Assembly (NCBI GenBank): GCA_002069765.1
Contig: MWBZ01000021.1
Location: 1 to 53,390, forward strand
Length of the DNA stretch: 53,390 bases
Direction of reading: 5' to 3'
Source: a bacterium ADurb.Bin243
Lineage (GTDB): Bacteria; Muiribacteriota; UBA9980
Position numbers and translations under genes: made by a program. Shown in pieces: positions 16,864 to 48,439 of the stretch (within the stretch, counting starts at the first letter, position 1; each line of letters opens with the position of its first letter). The notes beneath the pieces were generated by a model. It had not been told where the DNA came from. It worked only from the letters and a program-made list of their open reading frames with translations, and ran no database searches.

Positions 16864-18858
16864 ATGAAGAAGTATTTAGTATTGGCGTTTATCTCGGTTA
16901 TGGTTTTCAGTCTTATCTCTCCGGCTTTCGCGGCGCCCGAATGGGTCGCTTTAACCAAAGGCGCGGCGTCTAAGACTCCTACGATGAAACTCGTTCCTAC
17001 AAGGGACAATAGCGTTAAAATAATTGAAATTACGGTCCCCGGTTTTTACAGCGAAACTAAAAGAGCCGGCGAAAACGACGCTACATTCGTAACTACTGAT
17101 TTATCATCCAGGCACATGCAGAAAGGTATGCCTGAAATACCTACCATGAAAAACTTCATAATGCTTAAAGAAGGCGAAGAAGTCAGCGCTAAAATAGTTG
17201 GCGAAGACTGGGCCGAAGTTAAAATGAAAAAAGCGGCGGCTCCTTCTAAAGGCCATCTCACAAGAAACGTCAATCCTGAAGAAGTAAATTTTGAATATTC
17301 CGATTTTTACAATACAAAAAACACCTTCCCCGGAATGGACAACAAAGTCGTCATGAGCGAACCTTTCGTTATGCGCGACGTCCGCGGTGTTGAACTCACC
17401 GTAAATCCTTTCCAGTATGATAACGCTAAGAAAACCATGCTGGTAGCTAAAAAGATGAGAGTAGAGCTTAAATTCAACTCGGGCCGTTCCGCGGCGGCTA
17501 AAAAAGCCGTTCCTTATGAATTCGCCGAAATTTATAAAACCGCGTTCATCAATTTCAATCCTACGGATGTTATCGAAAGAATCGAACTCGGCAACGTTTT
17601 AATAATCGCGGCCGATCAGTTCGCCGAAGAAACCGCTCCGCTGGTAGAATGGAAAGCCAAACAGGGTTTCGGCGTAAAATTCGCTAAAATGAGCGAAGTC
17701 GGAACCACGGCCGATAACGTGTACGCTTTCATTAAAAACGAATACGAAAAAACCGGAATCGCATACATAATACTTGTTGGCGACACCGAATCGATACCCA
17801 CTCTCCTCGGCGTTAAAGAACGCGCGGCTTCCGATCCCTGCTTTACCAAACTCGCCGGCAACGATCACGTTCCCGATGCTATAATTTCAAGATTATCGGC
17901 TAAAACTCCCGCCGAAGTTAAAAATCAGGTAGCTAAAATAATACACTATGAACAGTTCCCCGATACGGGCGACGCGGCTAAATGGTACCGTAAAGCCGTA
18001 GGCATCGCAAGCGCCGAAGGCCAGCCCACCGATTACGAACGCGCTAACTGGCTGCGCGACGCGCTTATGAAATACAACTTCGACGTGGTAGATCAGATAT
18101 ACGATCCCCGTGCTTCAAAAGCTAAACTCATCGAAGCTATAAACGAAGGCCGCTCGGTCATCAACTACATAGGCCACGGCTCGAAAACCGCATGGGTTAC
18201 CACTTATTTCGGCAACGCCGACGCCCTCGCCCTTAAAAACGACAGAAAACTCCCCGTCATATGGTCGGTTGCCTGCGTTAACGGCCAGTTCAACGGCGGC
18301 TCCGACTGCTTCTGCGAAGCGTGGATGAAAGCGGGTTCCGCTGAAGCTCCCGCCGGCGCGGCAGCGATATTCGGCTCTTCCACTAACGCCGAATGGGTTC
18401 CTCCCTGCGATATGCAGTCCGAAATCAACAACGTCCAGACCGCCGGCGAAAAACAGTCCTCTTTCGGCGCTCTCGCTCTCACGGGCGTATTAAAAGCCAT
18501 GCAGACATGGGGCACCGCTCCTAATTCGTCAGGCGTTATGCTTTTCGAACAGTATAACATATTCGGCGACTGCACGATGGTAGTCAGAACCGACGTTCCT
18601 AAAGCGGTAGAATTCAAAACCAAACGCAGCGGCGACAAAGTAGAAGTAGTCGTCAACGCTGGCGGCAAAGCCGTTAAATACGCACGCGTAGCAGTGGCTG
18701 CCGGCGAAGGCAAAGAAATGAAATCAGCCGTTACCGATGAAAACGGTAAAGCCGAAATGACTTTCGAAGCTTTAAAAGACGAAAAAGCGACCGCCGGCTC
18801 GATCACCATCACCGGTATGAATCTCGTTCCCGTTGTAGATTCAACTATCGCTCTCTAA
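16864..18858 (+). CDS. Secreted gingipain-like cysteine protease (peptidase C25)
   Basis: The protein has 664 residues from the ATG at 16864; an ATG at 16852 is also in frame, but GGAGG lies between the two, so the second is used. A classic signal peptide ends at AFA-APE. A propeptide-like domain (about 30-230) is followed by the C25 catalytic domain with NYIGHGSKTAW (H438) and WSVACVNGQF (C471), the same His and Cys contexts as gingipain R and K. The C-terminus is an Ig/CNA-like domain (about 575-664) with VTDENGKAEMTF. No typical type IX sorting domain is evident. The codon choice (GCT, GAA, AAA, CTC) suggests high expression. Cleavage specificity cannot be read from sequence. Confidence 0.93.
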   Translation: MKKYLVLAFISVMVFSLISPAFAAPEWVALTKGAASKTPTMKLVPTRDNSVKIIEITVPGFYSETKRAGENDATFVTTDLSSRHMQKGMPEIPTMKNFIMLKEGEEVSAKIVGEDWAEVKMKKAAAPSKGHLTRNVNPEEVNFEYSDFYNTKNTFPGMDNKVVMSEPFVMRDVRGVELTVNPFQYDNAKKTMLVAKKMRVELKFNSGRSAAAKKAVPYEFAEIYKTAFINFNPTDVIERIELGNVLIIAADQFAEETAPLVEWKAKQGFGVKFAKMSEVGTTADNVYAFIKNEYEKTGIAYIILVGDTESIPTLLGVKERAASDPCFTKLAGNDHVPDAIISRLSAKTPAEVKNQVAKIIHYEQFPDTGDAAKWYRKAVGIASAEGQPTDYERANWLRDALMKYNFDVVDQIYDPRASKAKLIEAINEGRSVINYIGHGSKTAWVTTYFGNADALALKNDRKLPVIWSVACVNGQFNGGSDCFCEAWMKAGSAEAPAGAAAIFGSSTNAEWVPPCDMQSEINNVQTAGEKQSSFGALALTGVLKAMQTWGTAPNSSGVMLFEQYNIFGDCTMVVRTDVPKAVEFKTKRSGDKVEVVVNAGGKAVKYARVAVAAGEGKEMKSAVTDENGKAEMTFEALKDEKATAGSITITGMNLVPVVDSTIAL

Positions 18859-40180: not shown

Positions 40181-41002
40181 ATGAGAAAAACCAGAGTATT
40201 GTTTTTAAGCATTCTTGTTTTAGTGTTTTTAGCGGCTGTCAATCCGGTTTTCGCGGCAGGCAAAGACGACTCTTCTTTCAGCAAATCAAGCAAACTGATG
40301 AACGTGAAATCCGACGATAACTCGGAAGCTCCGGCTCCCGCTCCCGGCGATCCGGGCACGCCTTCGGCTCCTTCGGTTCCCTCGCCAGATAACGGCGACG
40401 CTCCTATTCCCGACAACATAAAACTTTATTATTGCGTCGTTCCTAAAGACCAGGTTACCAACCTCGAAGCTCTCTGCAACAAATACAACGCTCCTATTTT
40501 AGTTTACCGTGCGTTCAACCAGCTCGTAGTTTTAAAAAGACTCGGCGTTGTCGTTACGGTTAACCCTAAAGACAAATACTTTATATCCAAACTCCGCAAA
40601 TTCTATAACGCTAAACCTTTAAAAGACGTATCTCTCAGAGTAGCTATACATGTCAGCTCCGTAGCTTACGGCGTGAACATGAAAAAAGAAGATTTCGTTA
40701 CCGGCGATTTCGGCGGATGCGATGAAATCCTTTCTAAAATGATAAAAAACCCGTTCGGCCACGGCTGCACGATGTTTAAGACAATTGCTAAAGCGTTCCC
40801 CGGCCTTCTCGATAAAGTTACTGTAAAAGAAAAAGAATATCTCGGTCTCGGCAAAAAACGTAAAATGCTCCTTAATCCTGTAGTTACAATAGAAATGCTC
40901 GCGCTGAATATGAACGGCAAAGGCAAAAACGTCACTTTGTATCACAACAAATACTACTATGAAACTATTAAACATGCCGCTAACTACAACTGGAACAAGT
41001 AA
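40181..41002 (+). CDS. Secreted protein of unknown function with proline-rich linker
   Basis: I do not recognise this protein. It has 273 residues: a signal peptide (about 5-26, ending VFAAG), a Ser/Lys/Asp-rich segment, a low-complexity Pro/Ala/Gly/Asp linker (about 48-75), and a basic folded domain (about 80-273) starting IKLYYCVVPKDQVTNLEALCNKYNAPILVYRAFNQLVVLKRLG. Several cysteines (YYC, LCN, GGCDE, HGCTM) could pair after export. Strong promoter, own terminator and a codon use rich in GCT, AAA and CTC point to an abundant extracytoplasmic product. Confidence 0.85.
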   Translation: MRKTRVLFLSILVLVFLAAVNPVFAAGKDDSSFSKSSKLMNVKSDDNSEAPAPAPGDPGTPSAPSVPSPDNGDAPIPDNIKLYYCVVPKDQVTNLEALCNKYNAPILVYRAFNQLVVLKRLGVVVTVNPKDKYFISKLRKFYNAKPLKDVSLRVAIHVSSVAYGVNMKKEDFVTGDFGGCDEILSKMIKNPFGHGCTMFKTIAKAFPGLLDKVTVKEKEYLGLGKKRKMLLNPVVTIEMLALNMNGKGKNVTLYHNKYYYETIKHAANYNWNK

Positions 41003-41040
41003 TAATCAGGTTTCAATCTCATAGTAAATAAATATCCATA

Positions 41041-41072
41041 AAAAGAGGCCGTTTAAACGGCCTCTTTTTTTT
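41041..41072 (+). terminator. Intrinsic terminator
   Basis: A perfect palindrome AAAAGAGGCCG-TTTAAA-CGGCCTCTTTT continues into T8. It ends the 40181-41002 transcript. Confidence 0.93.
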
Positions 41073-41110
41073 ATAAGAGATGCGATTTTTAATAAATTAT
41101 CAAATAATTA

Positions 41111-41139
41111 TTTAAAACGGCTTTATAATATGCTATAAT
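41111..41139 (+). promoter_or_regulatory. Extended -10 promoter for the gene at 41202
   Basis: TTTAAA (41111-41116), a 17-bp spacer ending TGC, and TATAAT (41134-41139). GGAGG lies shortly before the ATG at 41202. Confidence 0.65.
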
Positions 41140-41201
41140 ATGAATGTAGATTTCATGTCCGTTTTTTGCGGCGATTATTTTAAAATATTTGGAGGAAATA
41201 T

Positions 41202-41939
41202 ATGAAACGTTTAAGTTCTTATGCAATAGCCTTATTTCCATTGCTTATATGCGTCCTTTGCTTTTCGGCGGTTTTCGCCGGCGCGGACTCCGATTTAAAA
41301 TTCGCCGCCGTCAAAAAGGCTGCCGTGAATTCTCTTACCGCTACTGAATTTACCGCTGAGGGCAAAGAAGGCACTTTTAAAGTTTACGCGATGTCCGTTT
41401 CCACTATTAAAGCCGAATGTCAACCTATCGCAGGGCTCAAGCTCAGCGCGATCGTCGCCGGCAGCAAAGTCAGCGTTATAAAAGAAATCGCCGGAATCGT
41501 CAGCGTTTCCGAAATGCCGGCCGATGAAGTTAAAAGGCATATCAAGCTTATCGATCCTTCTTTTATCGATGAATTAAAAGAGGCGGGCGCAGAAATAACC
41601 GAAGTTAAAGGCGAAACCGGAACAGTTTATACGATTACGGACAATAAAAAAATAAATAATTTTTTAAAATATGAAATAACCGTCGATTCAAAAACGGAAA
41701 CATTTTCTTCGTTAAAACTCTTTGACGCACAATCGGCTCTTGTTTCCGAAACTAAATGCAGCGGCTATGTTTTAAATAAAAAATACGAAGCCTCGTTTTT
41801 TTTAGTTCCGAAAGATGCTCAAAAACAGGATTTTAATGAAATGGCGCCAGAAGTGACTGAAAAATTAGGAAAAACCGGAGACCTGGTTCTGGAAAAAACT
41901 ATCGTAGATACGCAGGAAGTAAAATCCGAAGTGAAATAG
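41202..41939 (+). CDS. Secreted protein of unknown function
   Basis: This 245-residue protein has a signal peptide (about 5-28, LLICVLCFSAVFAGA) and a soluble remainder. The sequence alternates beta-like strands (TFKVYAMSVSTIKAECQ, TVYTITDNKKINNFLKYEITVDSKTETFSSLKLFD) in the manner of outer-membrane lipoprotein carrier or sorting proteins such as LolA/LolB. No signature motif allows a firm call, and no lipobox is present. GGAGG lies 7-8 bp upstream of the ATG. The HD-domain gene follows at 27 bp, probably in the same transcript. Confidence 0.82.
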   Translation: MKRLSSYAIALFPLLICVLCFSAVFAGADSDLKFAAVKKAAVNSLTATEFTAEGKEGTFKVYAMSVSTIKAECQPIAGLKLSAIVAGSKVSVIKEIAGIVSVSEMPADEVKRHIKLIDPSFIDELKEAGAEITEVKGETGTVYTITDNKKINNFLKYEITVDSKTETFSSLKLFDAQSALVSETKCSGYVLNKKYEASFFLVPKDAQKQDFNEMAPEVTEKLGKTGDLVLEKTIVDTQEVKSEVK

Positions 41940-41966: not shown

Positions 41967-42551
41967 ATGCCGTTATATAATTACGACCAATACATAAAAA
42001 AATTTGAGAGCTTATCTTCCCTGGTAAAAAAAAGGAAAAAACAATTTGATGGTTTCGTGAAGTTCTTAAAATCAAAAACGGAGTATTTCATCGCACCCGC
42101 TTCGACTATTTACCATTTGAATATCGAGCACGGCCTTTTATATCACTCCGTCGGGGTTACCGAAACGCTTCTTAAAATAAAAAATGCGCTGGCGCCTGAA
42201 CTCGAAGACGAATCCTGCGTCATATGCGGACTGTTTCACGATGCGGGCAAAGCGGGGCTGCCAGGCGCGCCGCTTTACATTAAAACTAAAAAGGCTTATG
42301 AAATAAATAAAAATCTTGTTGAAATGCAGGTAGCTATTCGTTCGCTCTTTCTGGTTTCAAAATATATAGACCTTTCGGCTGACGAGGCTCAAGCCATTAC
42401 TTATCATGACGGCCAGTATATCCCGCAGGGAAAAGATGTGGCTCACCGCGAAACTCCATTACTCACCATTCTTCATTTTGCCGATTTTTATACGGCCCAT
42501 ATTATTGAACAGGATATGCCCGTTATTCATCATCCGCCATTTAATTTTTAA
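41967..42551 (+). CDS. HD-domain phosphohydrolase
   Basis: This 194-residue protein shows the HD metal-site pattern in order: YHSVGV (first His), GLFHDAGK (His-Asp), AITYHDGQY and HFADFYTAH (late Asp). GAGAGG precedes the ATG. HD proteins hydrolyse nucleotides or cyclic nucleotides, but the HD-GYP signature is absent and the substrate cannot be named. It follows a secreted protein in a likely two-gene operon. No intrinsic terminator lies right behind it; the next one is at 42835. Confidence 0.85.
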   Translation: MPLYNYDQYIKKFESLSSLVKKRKKQFDGFVKFLKSKTEYFIAPASTIYHLNIEHGLLYHSVGVTETLLKIKNALAPELEDESCVICGLFHDAGKAGLPGAPLYIKTKKAYEINKNLVEMQVAIRSLFLVSKYIDLSADEAQAITYHDGQYIPQGKDVAHRETPLLTILHFADFYTAHIIEQDMPVIHHPPFNF

Positions 42552-42578
42552 AATTTGAGTGTCATCTATTCAAAAATT

Positions 42579-42629
42579 AATCACGAAGTCATCATTGTGC
42601 GTAAAAAATACACACAAGGCTTCGTGATT
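42579..42629. promoter_or_regulatory. Nested inverted repeat, candidate enhancer (UAS) for the sigma54 promoter
   Basis: The outer arms AATCACGAAG (42579-42588) and CTTCGTGATT (42620-42629) are perfectly complementary. The inner arms TTGTGCGTA (42595-42603) and TACACACAA (42609-42617) match at 8 of 9 around AAAAA. The centre lies about 113 bp upstream of the predicted sigma54 start, the usual position for NtrC-family binding sites. No T-tract follows on the plus strand, so it is a poor terminator. It could alternatively be an RNA hairpin at the 3' end of the HD-gene mRNA. Confidence 0.6.
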
Positions 42630-42692
42630 TGACTGAATAATTAACAAAAATAGTTACAATTTTAAAAAAATGATAAAATTAAAAGAAAATAG

Positions 42693-42709
42693 TTGGCACG
42701 CTATTTGCT
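42693..42709 (+). promoter_or_regulatory. Sigma54 (-24/-12) promoter
   Basis: TTGGCACG-CTAT-TTGCT matches the consensus TGGCAC-N5-TTGCW without a mismatch: TGGCAC at 42694-42699, five bases, TTGC at 42705-42708. The invariant GG and GC are at the correct spacing. Start of transcription is expected near 42720. No start codon with a ribosome site lies downstream, so it does not serve a plus-strand protein gene in the next 180 bp. Confidence 0.85.
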
Positions 42710-42719
42710 AATCTAATTG

Positions 42720-42863
42720 TGTATTTAAAAATGTTGTTTATAAGTTATCAATAGAGTTTCTCTAAGGCAAGTATTTGCCTAACTTCATACCTACCCCTAA
42801 TTTTGCCGGAATTATTTTTAGAATAACAGGCATGCCTCATTCATATGAATGAGGTTTTTTTTT
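42720..42863 (+). ncRNA. Predicted sigma54-dependent small RNA
   Basis: The roughly 145-nt stretch between the -24/-12 promoter and an intrinsic terminator has no credible open frame (an ATG at 42732 gives 7 codons without a ribosome site). Three hairpins can be drawn: AGGCAA/TTGCCT (42765-42770 with 42775-42780), TGCC...TTATT/AATAA...GGCA (42804-42832), and the terminator stem at 42835-42854. Between the first two lies an unpaired C-rich segment ACCTACCCCT (about 42789-42798), the kind of seed that pairs with Shine-Dalgarno regions. The ends are predicted only. Confidence 0.65.
42835..42863 (+). terminator. Intrinsic terminator of the predicted small RNA
   Basis: CCTCATTC-ATAT-GAATGAGG (42835-42854) is followed by T9. 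It faces the 3' end of the minus-strand regulator gene 43 bp away. Confidence 0.92.
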
Positions 42864-42905
42864 ATTATAAAAAGTTAAAAAAATGCGCTGATGAATCTTG
42901 CGGAA

Positions 42906-44484
42906 TTATAATCCGGGAATATTTTTAAGATAAGAATAAAGAGTCCTTCGAGTAATGCCGAGATACTTTGCGGTTCTGGTTTTATTATATCCGTTTAAAG
43001 CCAGGGCTTTTTTTATTATGGAGTTTATATGGTCGTTTAATGGAAAAACGCCGGTTGCGGGCAAGCTGAAATCCAGAAGCCGGTTCGTTGAAAAATCCTT
43101 TATGAAACCGTCTTTTTTAAAATCGGTATTGCGATCTCCGGCCGCATGCACTGCGCCCGGATCTGATTTGATTAAAACGTCCAGATGCTCCGGCGTTAAA
43201 GCCGCCGCGTCATACATAAATACGGCCCTTTCTATTACGTTTTTTAATTGCCTGATATTGCCGGGCCAGCGGTAGTTAAGAAGAAGCTTTTCGGCGTCGT
43301 CGCTGATGAATTTGAATTTTTTACCTTTTTTTGCGGAAATGTCTTTTAAAAACAGCATTGCCAGCGGAATTATTTCGTCGCGCCGTTCGCGCAGAGAAGG
43401 TATATAAATTCTTCCGACGTTGAGCCTGTAATAAAGGTCCTGCCGGAATTTAGCTTCCAGCACGCGGTCTTCGAGCCGCATATTAGTGGCGCATATTATC
43501 CTTAGATTGGTTTTAATCTTTTTTAATCCGCCCACCCTGAAATATTCTTTTTCCTGGATTACTCTTAAAAGTTTCGCCTGCATTTCAAGGGGCATGTCGG
43601 CGATTTCGTCAAGAAAAATCGTGCCGTTGTTAGCGATATCGAGTTTACCCGGCTGGCCTTTATCGAGACCGCCGGTAAACGCGCCAGGAGCATATCCGAA
43701 AAGCTCGCTTTCGAAAAGGCTCGGCGAAATGCAGGCGCAGTTCAAATCTACGAATGGAAGTCCGCCGGCGTCCGTTTCACCGTAATGGATGAATTGCGCT
43801 ACCATTTCCTTGCCTGAACCGGTTTCGCCTTCGATAAGAACGGGTATGCTCCTGTCTTCGTGGAGCATTTTTGCGTAATTGAAAATTTTTTTCATTTCGC
43901 CGCAAAAAACGCCGATTTTATTCATGCCTATGCTGTATTTGAACACGGGCGCCTGTCCGGGTGAAGCTTTACGAGCGGTTTCGGGGGCCGCGTTCGAAAG
44001 TGAATCGGCTTCCTGCGAAGCTGCAGGAGTAACCTTATGCGTCCTGGCCGGCACAATGCCGGTATCGGCGGGAACGTTTTCTCTTTTAACCGACAGCAGC
44101 TCGTTTTTCTTTTTAAGGATTTTAAATTGTGAAATCCTTTCGATGGAGCTTACTACTTCTTCGACGTTGATAGGCTTCAGCAGATAGTCGTAAACTCCGA
44201 ATCTTAAAGCTTCTATGGCGCTTTGTGTTTCGCTGAAACCCGTGAAAAGTATTATATTTACGTCATTGCCGCCGGGAAGGGTCCTGATTTTTTTTTACCA
44301 TTTCGATTCCCGACATAAAAGGCATTTTAATATCGGAAAAGATAATGTCGTAATAGTTGGGCAGAAATTTTTTAAGTGCCGAAACGCCGTCCGGGCATTC
44401 GGTTACATCGTGCCCCAGCTCTTTTAAAAACTGCGATATGCTTTCGCGGCTGGCGTTGTCGTCGTCTACGATCAGGATGTTCAA
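42906..44484 (-). pseudogene. NtrC-family sigma54 response regulator, split by a frameshift in an A9 tract
   Basis: The first frame (TTG at 44484) gives a receiver domain with D51 in FSDIKMP and stops near 44263. The next frame carries on exactly where it breaks: IRTLPGG...VNIILFTGFSE...YDYLLKPIN, then the AAA+ domain with GETGSGKEM, ELFGYAPGAFTGG, GTIFLDEIADMP and LRERRDE, and a Fis-type helix-turn-helix ending GYNKTRTAKYLGITRRTLYSYLKN. The switch point is nine A (44296-44288, minus strand); eight would restore one 525-residue protein. Slippage, phase variation, a genuine mutation or a read error are all possible. GAFTGG replaces the usual GAFTGA sigma54 contact loop. It is the last gene of the AOR/kinase operon. 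Confidence 0.85.
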
Positions 44485-44489
44485 TTTTT

Positions 44490-46391
44490 TTATCTCGCTT
44501 TATTTTTTTCGCATGCCGGAGCATTCGATGGCACTGCAGGAAGTTCTACATGGAAAGTAGCCCCGCCCCTGTCGTTGTTGAAAACTTCTATTTTTCCGTT
44601 GTAGCCGTTGAGGATCGTGCTTACGATAGCGAGGCCGAGGCCCATGCCGCCTTCCATTGTTTTCGTGCTGAAAAACGGGTCGAATATCCTTTCTTTAAGC
44701 TCTTCCGCTACGCCGGTCGCGTTGTCTGAAACTTCAAAAATGACTTTATCGTTTTCCAGCCTGGTTTCGCAAATTATCTCTTTTTCCCTGCCGCCGACTT
44801 TTTCAAGCGCCTGCACGGAGTTCACGATGAGGTTTACCGCCACTTCCTCTATTATATTCACGTTGCCCGGCACGTCGTTTAAATTTGCGCCCAGCTTTTT
44901 TTTCAATTTTATACCCTTCATGTCAAGCTGGTGCTTGAGCATTTCGTGTGTTTTTTCTATGGCCGCATTGAGATCGCACTTTGTAGTGGCCTGGCCCTGC
45001 CTGTAGCCCGCGAAAGCTCTCATCTGCTTTATGATTTCATCGATTCTAACTATCTGGTCGGAAATTTTCTGGAGGTTTTCGAAAATTTTTGAAATTTCGA
45101 CGACCTTTCCTTTTTTGTTCAGGAAAAGAAGGCTGTCTGCGAGTATTTTAATTGAATTGAGAGGCTGGTTTATTTCGTGGATAATGCCGGCGGAAATAGT
45201 GCTCAAAAGAGTCATTTTCTGTATTCCCGCGGCCTGCTTTTGAAGCGCTTCCTGCCTTGCCCTCAATCTTACCTGCTCGGTTATGTCATGGAAAATTACT
45301 ACGTATTTGGATGGCATCGACACGCCGGCTTCTATGTGGTTTATTATCATAAGCACATGGCATTCCGGGTGTTCTCTGGTAGAAAGTATAAATTCGGCCT
45401 GCTTTTGCTCGCCCGCTTTGATATGGCTGATTATTTCATCGAAGGCGGCCTGCGCTCTTACGTCTGGCATTATAAGTTTGATCGACTGGCCGATTGTCTG
45501 CTGTTCGCTGTAGCCGCTGAGAGCGCAAAACGCCGGATTAGTGAATTGGACGATGCAGCCGGAGTCTATGACGCAAATGGCCTCTCTGATATTTTCGAAT
45601 ACCATTTCCGCCATTTTTATCGTGCTCTGCGTCTGTTTTTTTTCGGTTAGATCGTGGACGCTGATAAGCTTATTGCCTGAATCGAGACCGTTCAGCGTTA
45701 AGCCTATGGGGATTTGAGTCCGGTCTCTTTTTTTCCCCGCGGTCTCTTTTTTTATTTTAATGTTTTTATTTTCGCCGGCCGCTTCTGAATCGCGTTTAAT
45801 GGCTTCGTCGGTGAGCTCGGGGATTATTTCCGATATTTTGCGACCTATTATGTCGGCCGCCTTGAAGTTGAAAATATCTTCGGCAGAGGGGTTGAATGAA
45901 ATTATCTGGTTGCCCGCGTCGGTTATTATTATTCCGTCGTTTACAAGCTCTGTAATTGAACGCTCGTTCACCAGCTTTTCTTCGAGCATGGATTCCGCCG
46001 TTTTTAAACGCAGCATGCGTTTGACTCTCTGGCGCAGCACGCTGAACTGAAAAGGCTTCGTGATGAAATCCGACACCCCTGATTCGAAGGCCATATCGAC
46101 GACGCTGTCGTCGTCGAGCCCCGTTATCATTAAAACCGGCACGTTTTTTCCGGTGTCGAGGCGCCTTAACATGCGGCAGGTGCTCATTCCGTCTAATATA
46201 GGCATCATGGCGTCGATAAGGATCATGTCGGGAGCTTCGGATTTAAAAATTTCTATGGCGCTTTCGCCGTCGGAAGCCTCTATGACTTCGTAGCCTTCGC
46301 CTTCGAGCATTTGCGTGAGCAGAAATCTCACGCTGCTTTCGTCGTCCACTACGAGAACTTTAAATTTATCGTTTATTATATTGTCGTTCAT
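44490..46391 (-). CDS. Sensor histidine kinase, REC-PAS-PAS-HisKA-HATPase (NtrB-like)
   Basis: This 633-residue soluble protein starts with a receiver domain (D60 in ILIDAMMP). Two PAS domains follow (about 140-250 and 258-375). The kinase core has H405 in GIIHEINQPLNSI and the HATPase motifs NLIVNSVQAL and GMGLGLAIV. The HEINQPL type of H-box is that of NtrB/DctB-like kinases, which pair with sigma54 activators; the response regulator gene starts 5 bp downstream. The start codon overlaps the stop of the upstream hybrid kinase (ATGA). The N-terminal receiver would let the upstream kinase control this one. Confidence 0.95.
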   Translation of the reverse strand: MNDNIINDKFKVLVVDDESSVRFLLTQMLEGEGYEVIEASDGESAIEIFKSEAPDMILIDAMMPILDGMSTCRMLRRLDTGKNVPVLMITGLDDDSVVDMAFESGVSDFITKPFQFSVLRQRVKRMLRLKTAESMLEEKLVNERSITELVNDGIIITDAGNQIISFNPSAEDIFNFKAADIIGRKISEIIPELTDEAIKRDSEAAGENKNIKIKKETAGKKRDRTQIPIGLTLNGLDSGNKLISVHDLTEKKQTQSTIKMAEMVFENIREAICVIDSGCIVQFTNPAFCALSGYSEQQTIGQSIKLIMPDVRAQAAFDEIISHIKAGEQKQAEFILSTREHPECHVLMIINHIEAGVSMPSKYVVIFHDITEQVRLRARQEALQKQAAGIQKMTLLSTISAGIIHEINQPLNSIKILADSLLFLNKKGKVVEISKIFENLQKISDQIVRIDEIIKQMRAFAGYRQGQATTKCDLNAAIEKTHEMLKHQLDMKGIKLKKKLGANLNDVPGNVNIIEEVAVNLIVNSVQALEKVGGREKEIICETRLENDKVIFEVSDNATGVAEELKERIFDPFFSTKTMEGGMGLGLAIVSTILNGYNGKIEVFNNDRGGATFHVELPAVPSNAPACEKNKAR

Positions 46392-48439
46392 AGCATCTCC
46401 TTGCCGTCGATTAATAGCCTTAATTTTTCATTCAAAAATTTATAATTGGAATCTATTTCGGGGATAAACGCTTCGAGGTTTTCGATTTCGTTATTTTTGG
46501 CCTTAGCTTCGATGGCTTTAAATATTGCGGAAAGCTTCGTTCCGCCTACGTTAGCCGTGCTGGATTTTAAATTGTGCGCTATATGCCTTATCGACTCCGC
46601 GGCGCCTTCTTTTATGGAGGCCTTTAACGACTCTATCTTCGCGTCGGTTTCTTTCAGGTAAATGGTGAAAAGCTGGCAAATTATATCGGGTTTGCCCGGT
46701 AGCTGAAGTTTTTTCAACTCGGATATCAGTTTAGGGTCGAATACCGGGTCTTCGTTCTCTTTTTTTATGATTTCGCATTTTTCCTGCTGCAAAGGCTCTT
46801 CTTTATTCATCTTATTTTCGCTCCAATTTTTTGCGTTTTCGCCGGACGCTATTTTTATTAATTTGCCGTAAAGCGAATCGAAATCGATAGGTTTGGTAAA
46901 ATAATCGTCCATTCCGGCTCTTATGCATTTTTCACGGGTGCCGTAAACCGTGCCGGCCGTAAGAGCTATAATAGCGCAGCGCGGCTTTCCGGCCGATCTT
47001 TCATACTCGCGTATCAGTGCGGCCGCCGTTATGCCGTCCATTACCGGCATCTGGCAGTCCATAATGACGGCGGATATGCGCTGCCGCTTGCATATATTGA
47101 AACATTCTTCGCCGTTTATAGCCATTTCGATTTTTTTAACGCCTTTTTTTATTAAAAAAGAATGGATCAATTTCTGGTTGAAAGAATTATCTTCAGTAAT
47201 AAGAACCGAGAAATTTTCATCGAAAGCGAACGTCGTGTCAGCCTGCGAACTTTGAATTTTGGTGTCGGCTTCAGCCGGGGAAAGCATAACGCCGGGCGCA
47301 GTATTTTCGCAGCTTTTTTTTAGTTCGAGTATGAACCAGAATTTGGAACCTTTTTGGTGCCTGCTTTCAAAATATAAATTTCCGTTCATGAGCTCTATGA
47401 TCTTTTTTGATATTACAAGCCCGAGGCCGTGCCCTTCTTTTTTTAAAAGCCCGGTGTCTTCGATCTGGTAATACGGCATGAAGAGTTCCTTTTGTTTTTC
47501 AGCTTCTATTCCGATTCCGGTGTCGGCGATTTCAAACGATAGTTTTACCGAATCCGGCTTTGCAGACACGGTTTTAACCGTCAGAGAAACGCCGCCTTTG
47601 TCGGTGTATTTAATCGCGTTCGAGCAGAGGTTTATTAAAACCTGCCTTATTCTAAGGGAATCGCCCGTGAATTTTTCGGTTATATCCCTTGCTATCGAGC
47701 ATGTGAAATCGATGTTCTTTTCGCGAGCTTTTACAAGAAGCATTTCGTGCGCGGATTTTACGATTTCGTCGATAGTGAAAGAGTTCTGCGATATGGTGAG
47801 GTTGCCCGATTCCAGCTTGGAAACGTCCAGGATATCGTTGATGATTTTTAAAAGGTATTCGCACGATTTATTGATTATATCCACGTATTCTAGCTGCTCG
47901 GAAGTGAGGACTGTTTTGCGGATTAAATCGCTCATGCCGACGATGCTCGTCATAGGCGTTTTGATTTCATGGCTCATGACCGCCAGAAACCTGCTTTTGG
48001 CTTCTACGGCTTTTTCGGCGTCTTTTAACGCCGAGTTGAAATGCTTCTGGCGCGATATAGCATGCTTTATTTTTAATATCAGTTCTTCTGCGCCGATTTT
48101 TTCGGCGCAGACGCATAGCTGCGCCCCGAGGCCGTAAGCCGCGTCGGATTCCGCTTCGGAGGAGAAGTTTTCGCCGATAAGAATTATGGCGCTTTCGGGC
48201 TTGATTTTTTTGACCGTCTTTATTATATGCGAAGCGGTCAGCTTGAGCGAAGCCGGGTCGGCTATGACGGCGTCGAAATTTCTTACTGTAAGGTCTTTTT
48301 GGGCCGATTCCGCGTCCTGGGCTATGTATAAAGAATAAGCCTGAGGCGCGGGCGCTTTTAAAGCTTCGTCGAGTTTGACGGCCAGCTGGATATTGCGGGT
48401 TATAAGCAGTAACTGATAGTTAAAGGCATGGTTCGTCAT
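46388..48439 (-). CDS. Hybrid histidine kinase, pseudo-receiver-HisKA-HATPase-REC-Hpt
   Basis: This is a 683-residue soluble protein. The N-terminal about 130 residues have receiver-like spacing (NFDAVIADPASLKL) but lack the acidic pocket, so the domain is likely degenerate. HisKA has H157 in SHEIKTPMTS, and HATPase has NAIKYTDKGG and GHGLGLVIS. A receiver (about 435-555) has the phospho-acceptor in VIMDCQMPVMDG. Hpt has its histidine in IAHNLKSSTANVG. It probably passes phosphate to the receiver of the next kinase or to the NtrC-type regulator. It begins 5 bp after the ThiS/MoaD-like gene. Confidence 0.95.
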   Translation of the reverse strand: MTNHAFNYQLLLITRNIQLAVKLDEALKAPAPQAYSLYIAQDAESAQKDLTVRNFDAVIADPASLKLTASHIIKTVKKIKPESAIILIGENFSSEAESDAAYGLGAQLCVCAEKIGAEELILKIKHAISRQKHFNSALKDAEKAVEAKSRFLAVMSHEIKTPMTSIVGMSDLIRKTVLTSEQLEYVDIINKSCEYLLKIINDILDVSKLESGNLTISQNSFTIDEIVKSAHEMLLVKAREKNIDFTCSIARDITEKFTGDSLRIRQVLINLCSNAIKYTDKGGVSLTVKTVSAKPDSVKLSFEIADTGIGIEAEKQKELFMPYYQIEDTGLLKKEGHGLGLVISKKIIELMNGNLYFESRHQKGSKFWFILELKKSCENTAPGVMLSPAEADTKIQSSQADTTFAFDENFSVLITEDNSFNQKLIHSFLIKKGVKKIEMAINGEECFNICKRQRISAVIMDCQMPVMDGITAAALIREYERSAGKPRCAIIALTAGTVYGTREKCIRAGMDDYFTKPIDFDSLYGKLIKIASGENAKNWSENKMNKEEPLQQEKCEIIKKENEDPVFDPKLISELKKLQLPGKPDIICQLFTIYLKETDAKIESLKASIKEGAAESIRHIAHNLKSSTANVGGTKLSAIFKAIEAKAKNNEIENLEAFIPEIDSNYKFLNEKLRLLIDGKEML

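Follow-up and report, generated by a model that had tools for sequence, protein, structure and literature searches.

A putative sigma54-dependent small RNA gene beside an NtrC-family regulator in Wallbacteria

In this study, we describe a conserved locus of Wallbacteria/UBP16 which, as judged from its sequence, almost certainly encodes a small regulatory RNA that sigma54 switches on, probably through the NtrC-family regulator encoded next to it. The window, by which we mean the whole stretch of 53,390 nucleotides that was analysed, is contig C21 of a 5.0 Mb genome that is 96% complete. A −24/−12 promoter before a terminator-ended non-coding RNA is what characterizes the sigma54 sRNA class, and the predicted RNA would belong to it on this ground. 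We consider it fairly probable that the segment 42693-42863 is a free-standing sRNA gene which is driven by a phosphorelay, an NtrC-family activator and sigma54, and whose product acts in trans by seed pairing. This account is built on the promoter sequence, the conserved structured core, the terminator, the synteny, and the RpoN and Hfq genes.

The comparison set consisted of four species, all of one genus: the window's genome (G000) and its three nearest relatives (G001-G003), namely JPNA_metabat.86 (JPNA), Candidatus Wallbacteria GWC2_49_35 (GWC2), and UBP16 UBA6123 (UBA6123). The RNA element is flanked by a flagellar run ending in an HD-domain gene and by an aldehyde-oxidoreductase cluster (Table 1). 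Beyond the regulator follow a REC-PAS-PAS kinase, a REC/Hpt hybrid kinase, ThiF, an aldehyde ferredoxin oxidoreductase (AOR), and a polyferredoxin. The synteny of HD gene, RNA, activator, two kinases, ThiF, and AOR is common to the four species, and BLASTN found one copy of the element per genome, at the same junction, in the window and in three of three congeners. The covariance search of related genomes that the original prediction had proposed recovered all three congeners; congeners scored 137-148 bits and the next best hit 27.7 bits, and neither BLASTN nor the covariance model gave a copy outside the four congeners among about 40 genomes of the phylum. Viral and plasmid sequences gave no match to the element. 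Among the window's open reading frames, none on the plus strand lies downstream for which the RNA could serve as a leader. Two paralogues of the exported protein encoded at 40181 are present in GWC2 and in UBA6123 (L041 9318-11154; L042 13483-15760); within 40181-41939 the window has a single such gene, plus an unrelated exported protein at 41202.

Table 1. Positions of the observed and predicted features in the window
Feature	Position	Strand	Basis or remark
Secreted C25 (gingipain-type) peptidase gene with propeptide	16864-18858		start region GGAGGUAGUAAUGAAG partly complementary to seed
HD-domain gene, last of flagellar run	41967-42551	+	stop at 42551
Upstream block TCATCTATTCAAAAATTAATCACGAA, candidate activator-binding (UAS) region, about −158 to −133	42562-42587	+	near-invariant, four species
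Half-site L1 AATCACGAAG	42579-42588	+	AATCAYGAA kept in four species
Half-site L2 CATCATTGTG, repeating L1 directly at a distance of 11 bp	42590-42599	+	alignment, inspection
Inverted half-site R (AATCACGAAG on minus strand), right arm of the dyad originally predicted	42620-42629	−	distinct in window and JPNA alone
Second conserved upstream block AATAATTAACAAAA	42636-42649	+	alignment
Sigma54 −24/−12 promoter TTGGCAC-GCTAT-TTGCT (TTGGCACGCTATTTGCT)	42693-42709	+	kept in four species
5' leader of predicted RNA, little stable structure	42720-42751	+	unconserved
sRNA core, 81 nt	42752-42832	+	76/81 window positions invariant, four species
Hairpin 1 UAGAG-UUU-CUCUA	42752-42764	+	predicted in all four species
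Hairpin 2 AGGCAA-GUAU-UUGCCU	42765-42780	+	predicted fold
Unpaired C-rich 23-mer AACUUCAUACCUACCCCUAAUUU, proposed seed	42781-42803	+	unpaired in every core fold
Hairpin 3 UGCC..UUAUUU/GAAUAA..GGCA	42804-42832	+	predicted fold
Intrinsic terminator, 9-bp stem, 4-nt loop, T9	42834-42863	+	compensatory changes
NtrC-family response regulator REC-AAA+-Fis, likely activator	42906-44486	−	frameshift near 44290
REC-PAS-PAS histidine kinase	44490-46391	−	syntenic in four species
Hybrid histidine kinase with REC and Hpt	46388-48439	−	syntenic in four species

The −24/−12 box, originally claimed to be mismatch-free, is indeed exact, and the strand-corrected alignment reads TTGGCAC/T...TTGCT in all four species. 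When the 53 kb were scanned with the sigma54 consensus, it was the only site within 3 weight units of the maximum, and an RNA start near 42720 would be expected from its position. The exact pattern TTGGCAC-N5-TTGCW occurs six times in the window's genome versus two for the reversed pattern; there are 4-6 exact boxes per genome, and the four genomes summed have 20 versus three reversed. The genes behind most of them are conserved (Hsp20, Flp pilin, type IV pilin, DnaK, and a small zinc-ribbon protein). Because exact boxes are rare and mostly precede conserved genes, we take the pattern as the mark of real sigma54 promoters in this genus. At our locus, conservation is confined to islands, so that the box is conserved whereas 42650-42690 and 42710-42749 are not, and identity to GWC2 and UBA6123 between the islands is about 25-70%.

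A further exact-box context is a second conserved RNA upstream of an RNase E/G gene. There, a sigma54 promoter is followed by a conserved non-coding RNA of about 110 nt (TGTGGCACTTAACGAACCC...GCTGAAATATTAAGCAC...) and a strong terminator, at L060 1501-1640 (G000:C36:9300 onward) and also in L057, L119, and L121. Its sequence is conserved in the four congeners, and in UBA6123 as in the window's genome the RNase E/G gene follows it; it could be a further sigma54 sRNA or else a leader by which the ribonuclease is attenuated.

In the four-species alignment, the 26-bp upstream block shows a single C/T change, in GWC2, and its flanks diverge. It has no close match elsewhere in the four genomes, where the sole other hits have 3 mismatches. 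The nested dyad originally predicted in this region is present in the window, with exact outer arms (half-sites L1 and R) and inner arms TTGTGCGTA and TACACACAA agreeing at 8 of 9 positions, but as a palindrome it is not kept in two of the three relatives. We rejected the palindrome as the binding site, GWC2 and UBA6123 being without a comparable one; in JPNA, the best partner of the right arm is a different left element. What persists across species is AATCAYGAA together with a second AATCAC-type half-site, next to or inside the 26-bp block, L2 reading AATCACGATG or AATCAC in GWC2 and UBA6123 and CATCACGATG in JPNA. NtrC-family activators normally use a pair of half-sites on one helix face, about 120-140 bp upstream of the start. 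The half-sites at 42579 and 42590 would fit such a pair at the usual distance, and the adjacent protein may well bind the half-site block.

The regulator gene was correctly predicted to end 43 bp from the terminator, its stop codon lying at 42906, and it is intact in JPNA and GWC2 (525-530 aa, REC-AAA+-Fis). The window's copy has a frameshift at a homopolymer of the receiver-domain sequence (44285-44300), which was overlooked at first and splits the start of REC from the rest, and the UBA6123 regulator has a different frame break near the C-terminus; these could be assembly errors or real inactivation. Moreover, the sigma54-contact loop reads GAFTGG, not GAFTGA, in four of four regulators (AAA+, window 42906-44054; GYAAGAFTGG in GWC2). 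The GAFTGG loop, the window frameshift, and the UBA6123 interruption all count against our leading reading. RpoN is single-copy in each of the four genomes; RpoN and an NtrC-family activator gene are both present, as in the sigma54 class, the window's copy of the latter being frameshifted. It is rather unlikely, though conceivable, that the same sRNA gene answers to some other sigma54 activator and that the adjacent regulator governs other genes. Related proteins are numerous (in each congener genome, a query with the regulator had 101-157 candidate matches at first look), the link of the half-site motif to the adjacent regulator is indirect, and V. fischeri qrr1 is under two activators (PMC10162802). 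Against this, the RNA and the regulator keep strict synteny in four species, and the upstream block occurs at this locus alone, as one would expect of a dedicated pair of neighbours; the same observations support the proposal that the neighbour is the activator, a role that we regard as putative.

With regard to the RNA itself, the non-coding stretch, hairpins, and terminator of the original prediction agree with the fold statistics: the window RNA has a minimum free energy of −28.5 kcal/mol (z = −4.3), and none of 200 shuffles was as stable. Four hairpins with a 22-23-nt unpaired C-rich linker recur when each species is folded alone (z = −4.3, −2.6, −1.7, and −4.8). At fourfold-degenerate sites of HD, HK1, and AOR, 51-62% differ between the window and GWC2/UBA6123, and the near-invariance of the core against this divergence argues for strong nucleotide-level constraint. 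Conservation of both the −24/−12 box and the hairpins among relatives, on which the original prediction had staked itself, was found in the four species. Covariation consists of two compensatory pairs in the terminator stem and one U-G to U-A change in hairpin 3 that keeps the pairing; since all four species are of one genus, most of the core is invariant and the inner hairpins are almost without covariation support, their pairs varying so little that covariation speaks neither for nor against them. The leader (30 nt) is about 24 nt longer in UBA6123 and, because it is unconserved, the functional RNA is probably the ~110-nt part from 42752, perhaps after processing. The unpaired C-rich segment that had been predicted corresponds to the 23-mer, which is invariant in three species and has one T deleted in UBA6123.

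The complement of this 23-mer, AAATTAGGGGTAGGTATGAAGTT, resembles a Shine-Dalgarno sequence plus AUG-AAG, and CUUCAUACCUACCCCUAA is the exact complement of UUAGGGGUAGGUAUGAAG (Shine-Dalgarno-like, then AUG-AAG), so that translation blocking is a natural proposal. That the RNA instead binds a protein, by titration as CrcZ or RsmZ do, and does not base-pair, we consider unlikely: four stable hairpins are compatible with titration and CrcZ, a close layout analogue, sequesters Hfq/Crc, but inspection of the core gave no run of CA-rich Hfq motifs and just one GGA, and an invariant unpaired 23-mer complementary to a Shine-Dalgarno/start codon region is a better fit to pairing. It is very unlikely that the conserved RNA chiefly represents the 3' end of the flagellar/HD mRNA, as a 3'-UTR sRNA or terminator, with the box being incidental. 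From the HD stop to 42834, no terminator with a T tail was found, so read-through would end there; however, a terminator alone does not explain the 81-nt conserved core, and the conservation of the box but not of its flanking segments argues against an incidental box. Both sources of RNA could coexist, as for crcZ (PMC8871633). A short peptide gene can practically be dismissed, since the leader frame MLFISYQ (7 codons) that inspection allows in the window and JPNA is missing in GWC2 and UBA6123, and the core is interrupted by stops, differs in length by 1 nt and 2 nt between species, and is equally conserved at all codon positions, the third being no freer than the others.

We therefore return to the free-standing, trans-acting sRNA, for which we infer transcription, activation by the neighbour, Hfq binding, a base-pairing mode, and targets. 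Firstly, the neighbouring two-kinase phosphorelay would phosphorylate the NtrC-family regulator, which would then bind the conserved block ~120-158 bp upstream and drive sigma54-RNA polymerase at the −24/−12 box. Secondly, a transcript of ~145 nt, possibly trimmed to the ~110-nt conserved part, would end at the U-tailed terminator, whose tail could load Hfq, making the RNA probably Hfq-dependent. Finally, the invariant unpaired 23-mer would pair in trans with ribosome-binding/start regions of mRNAs, and the simplest outcome would be a block to their translation. Hfq was found in the three congeners; the assembly to which the window belongs (96% complete) gave no match, which counts against this reading and is probably an assembly gap.

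When up to 3 mismatches were allowed, the seed complement had no more matches than the control in the four genomes, and no target was significant after allowing for the number of genes tested. Together with the unremarkable pairing predicted for neighbouring genes, this failure to find a strong target counts against the leading reading. As candidates for pairing with CUUCAUACCUACCCC, we considered the AOR-operon leader, C25 peptidase, and SLT-domain genes. The first mRNA of the AOR operon has an 8-nt seed match, GUAUGAAG, at the start codon in three species, and duplex energies for this leader gene are −14.6, −15.2, and −15.7 kcal/mol in three species (2-22% of shuffles). The C25 peptidase gene gave −18.0 kcal/mol (1.7% of shuffles) among 42 genes tested; both genes are no more than suggestive as targets. 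The best repeated seed match is in the start region TTGGGGGAAAGTATGAAG of a lysine-rich secreted SLT-domain protein in three species, with 2 mismatches (L068, L069, L070); it is kept while its flanks differ, and 16 of 18 positions can pair with the seed. This gene was not found in the fourth genome (76% complete), and we do not claim it as a target. It is possible, if doubtful, that the two-kinase phosphorelay, sigma54 activator, and sRNA form a dedicated switch that reads the redox/aldehyde state and feeds back on the AOR operon and on secreted/flagellar functions.

Several known systems share this layout. The LuxO-activated Qrr RNAs of Vibrio resemble the window RNA in having a sigma54 promoter and a gene beside an NtrC-family activator. 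They also share with it several hairpins, an upstream phosphorelay, and a pairing segment that is conserved and unpaired. Of 21 Vibrionaceae representatives, 20 have a putative Qrr opposite luxO (PMC10162802). In contrast, the window RNA is in a different phylum, has one copy and an AOR/flagellar context, and is convergent with the activator gene where Qrr is divergent; it also has no Rfam sequence match, so that the original analogy with Qrr was right for the layout but does not extend to family membership. GlmY likewise adjoins a two-component sigma54 activator, QseE/QseF (GlrK/GlrR), and is activated through upstream sites (PMC8745638, PMC6075780); it differs in being a decoy in the RapZ/GlmZ pathway (PMC7073468), and the window RNA has no Rfam match to it. 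CrcZ with CbrA/CbrB in Pseudomonas and Azotobacter is sigma54- and CbrB-dependent, a separate unit beside cbrAB, and of conserved synteny (PMC8871633). Unlike the window RNA, CrcZ sequesters Hfq/Crc and sits downstream of cbrB, and the window RNA has neither an Rfam match nor, by inspection, repeated CA-rich Hfq/Crc-binding motifs. Pxr of Myxococcus is sigma54-dependent. It is an sRNA with conserved stem-loops (PMC5684412), from which the window RNA differs by its context and the lack of an Rfam match. No Rfam family reached its gathering threshold, including the Qrr, GlmY/GlmZ, and CrcZ models, in agreement with the earlier statement that no Qrr sequence is evident; relaxed-threshold matches such as those to ceN45, the trpB motif, and Spot 42 (16-26 bits vs cut-offs of 59-80) were judged to be chance.

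The literature search gave no paper joining Wallbacteria and small RNAs, nor AOR, sigma54, and small RNA. The combination had been called undescribed, and the empty literature and Rfam searches bear this out for the RNA family and the AOR linkage; the design itself is known, and because Qrr1-LuxO, GlmY-QseF, and CrcZ-CbrB are well established, novelty is limited to those two points. From the shared layout and the absence of an Rfam match, we conclude that the RNA family is new but its functional kind is known, and the best reading by analogy is that the RNA is functionally Qrr/GlmY/CrcZ-like and a member of none of these families. With core, seed, and upstream block defined exactly, the circuit lends itself to direct testing. 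Sequence and comparison here reveal a predicted sRNA that keeps its place beside its probable activator, in a candidate phylum on whose small RNAs our search returned no paper. If the doubtful feedback on the AOR operon were real, this would be a first sRNA circuit both in AOR metabolism and in the phylum. The RNA would also be one more unrelated member of the Qrr/GlmY/CrcZ arrangement, which suggests that the phosphorelay-activator-sRNA design arises repeatedly.
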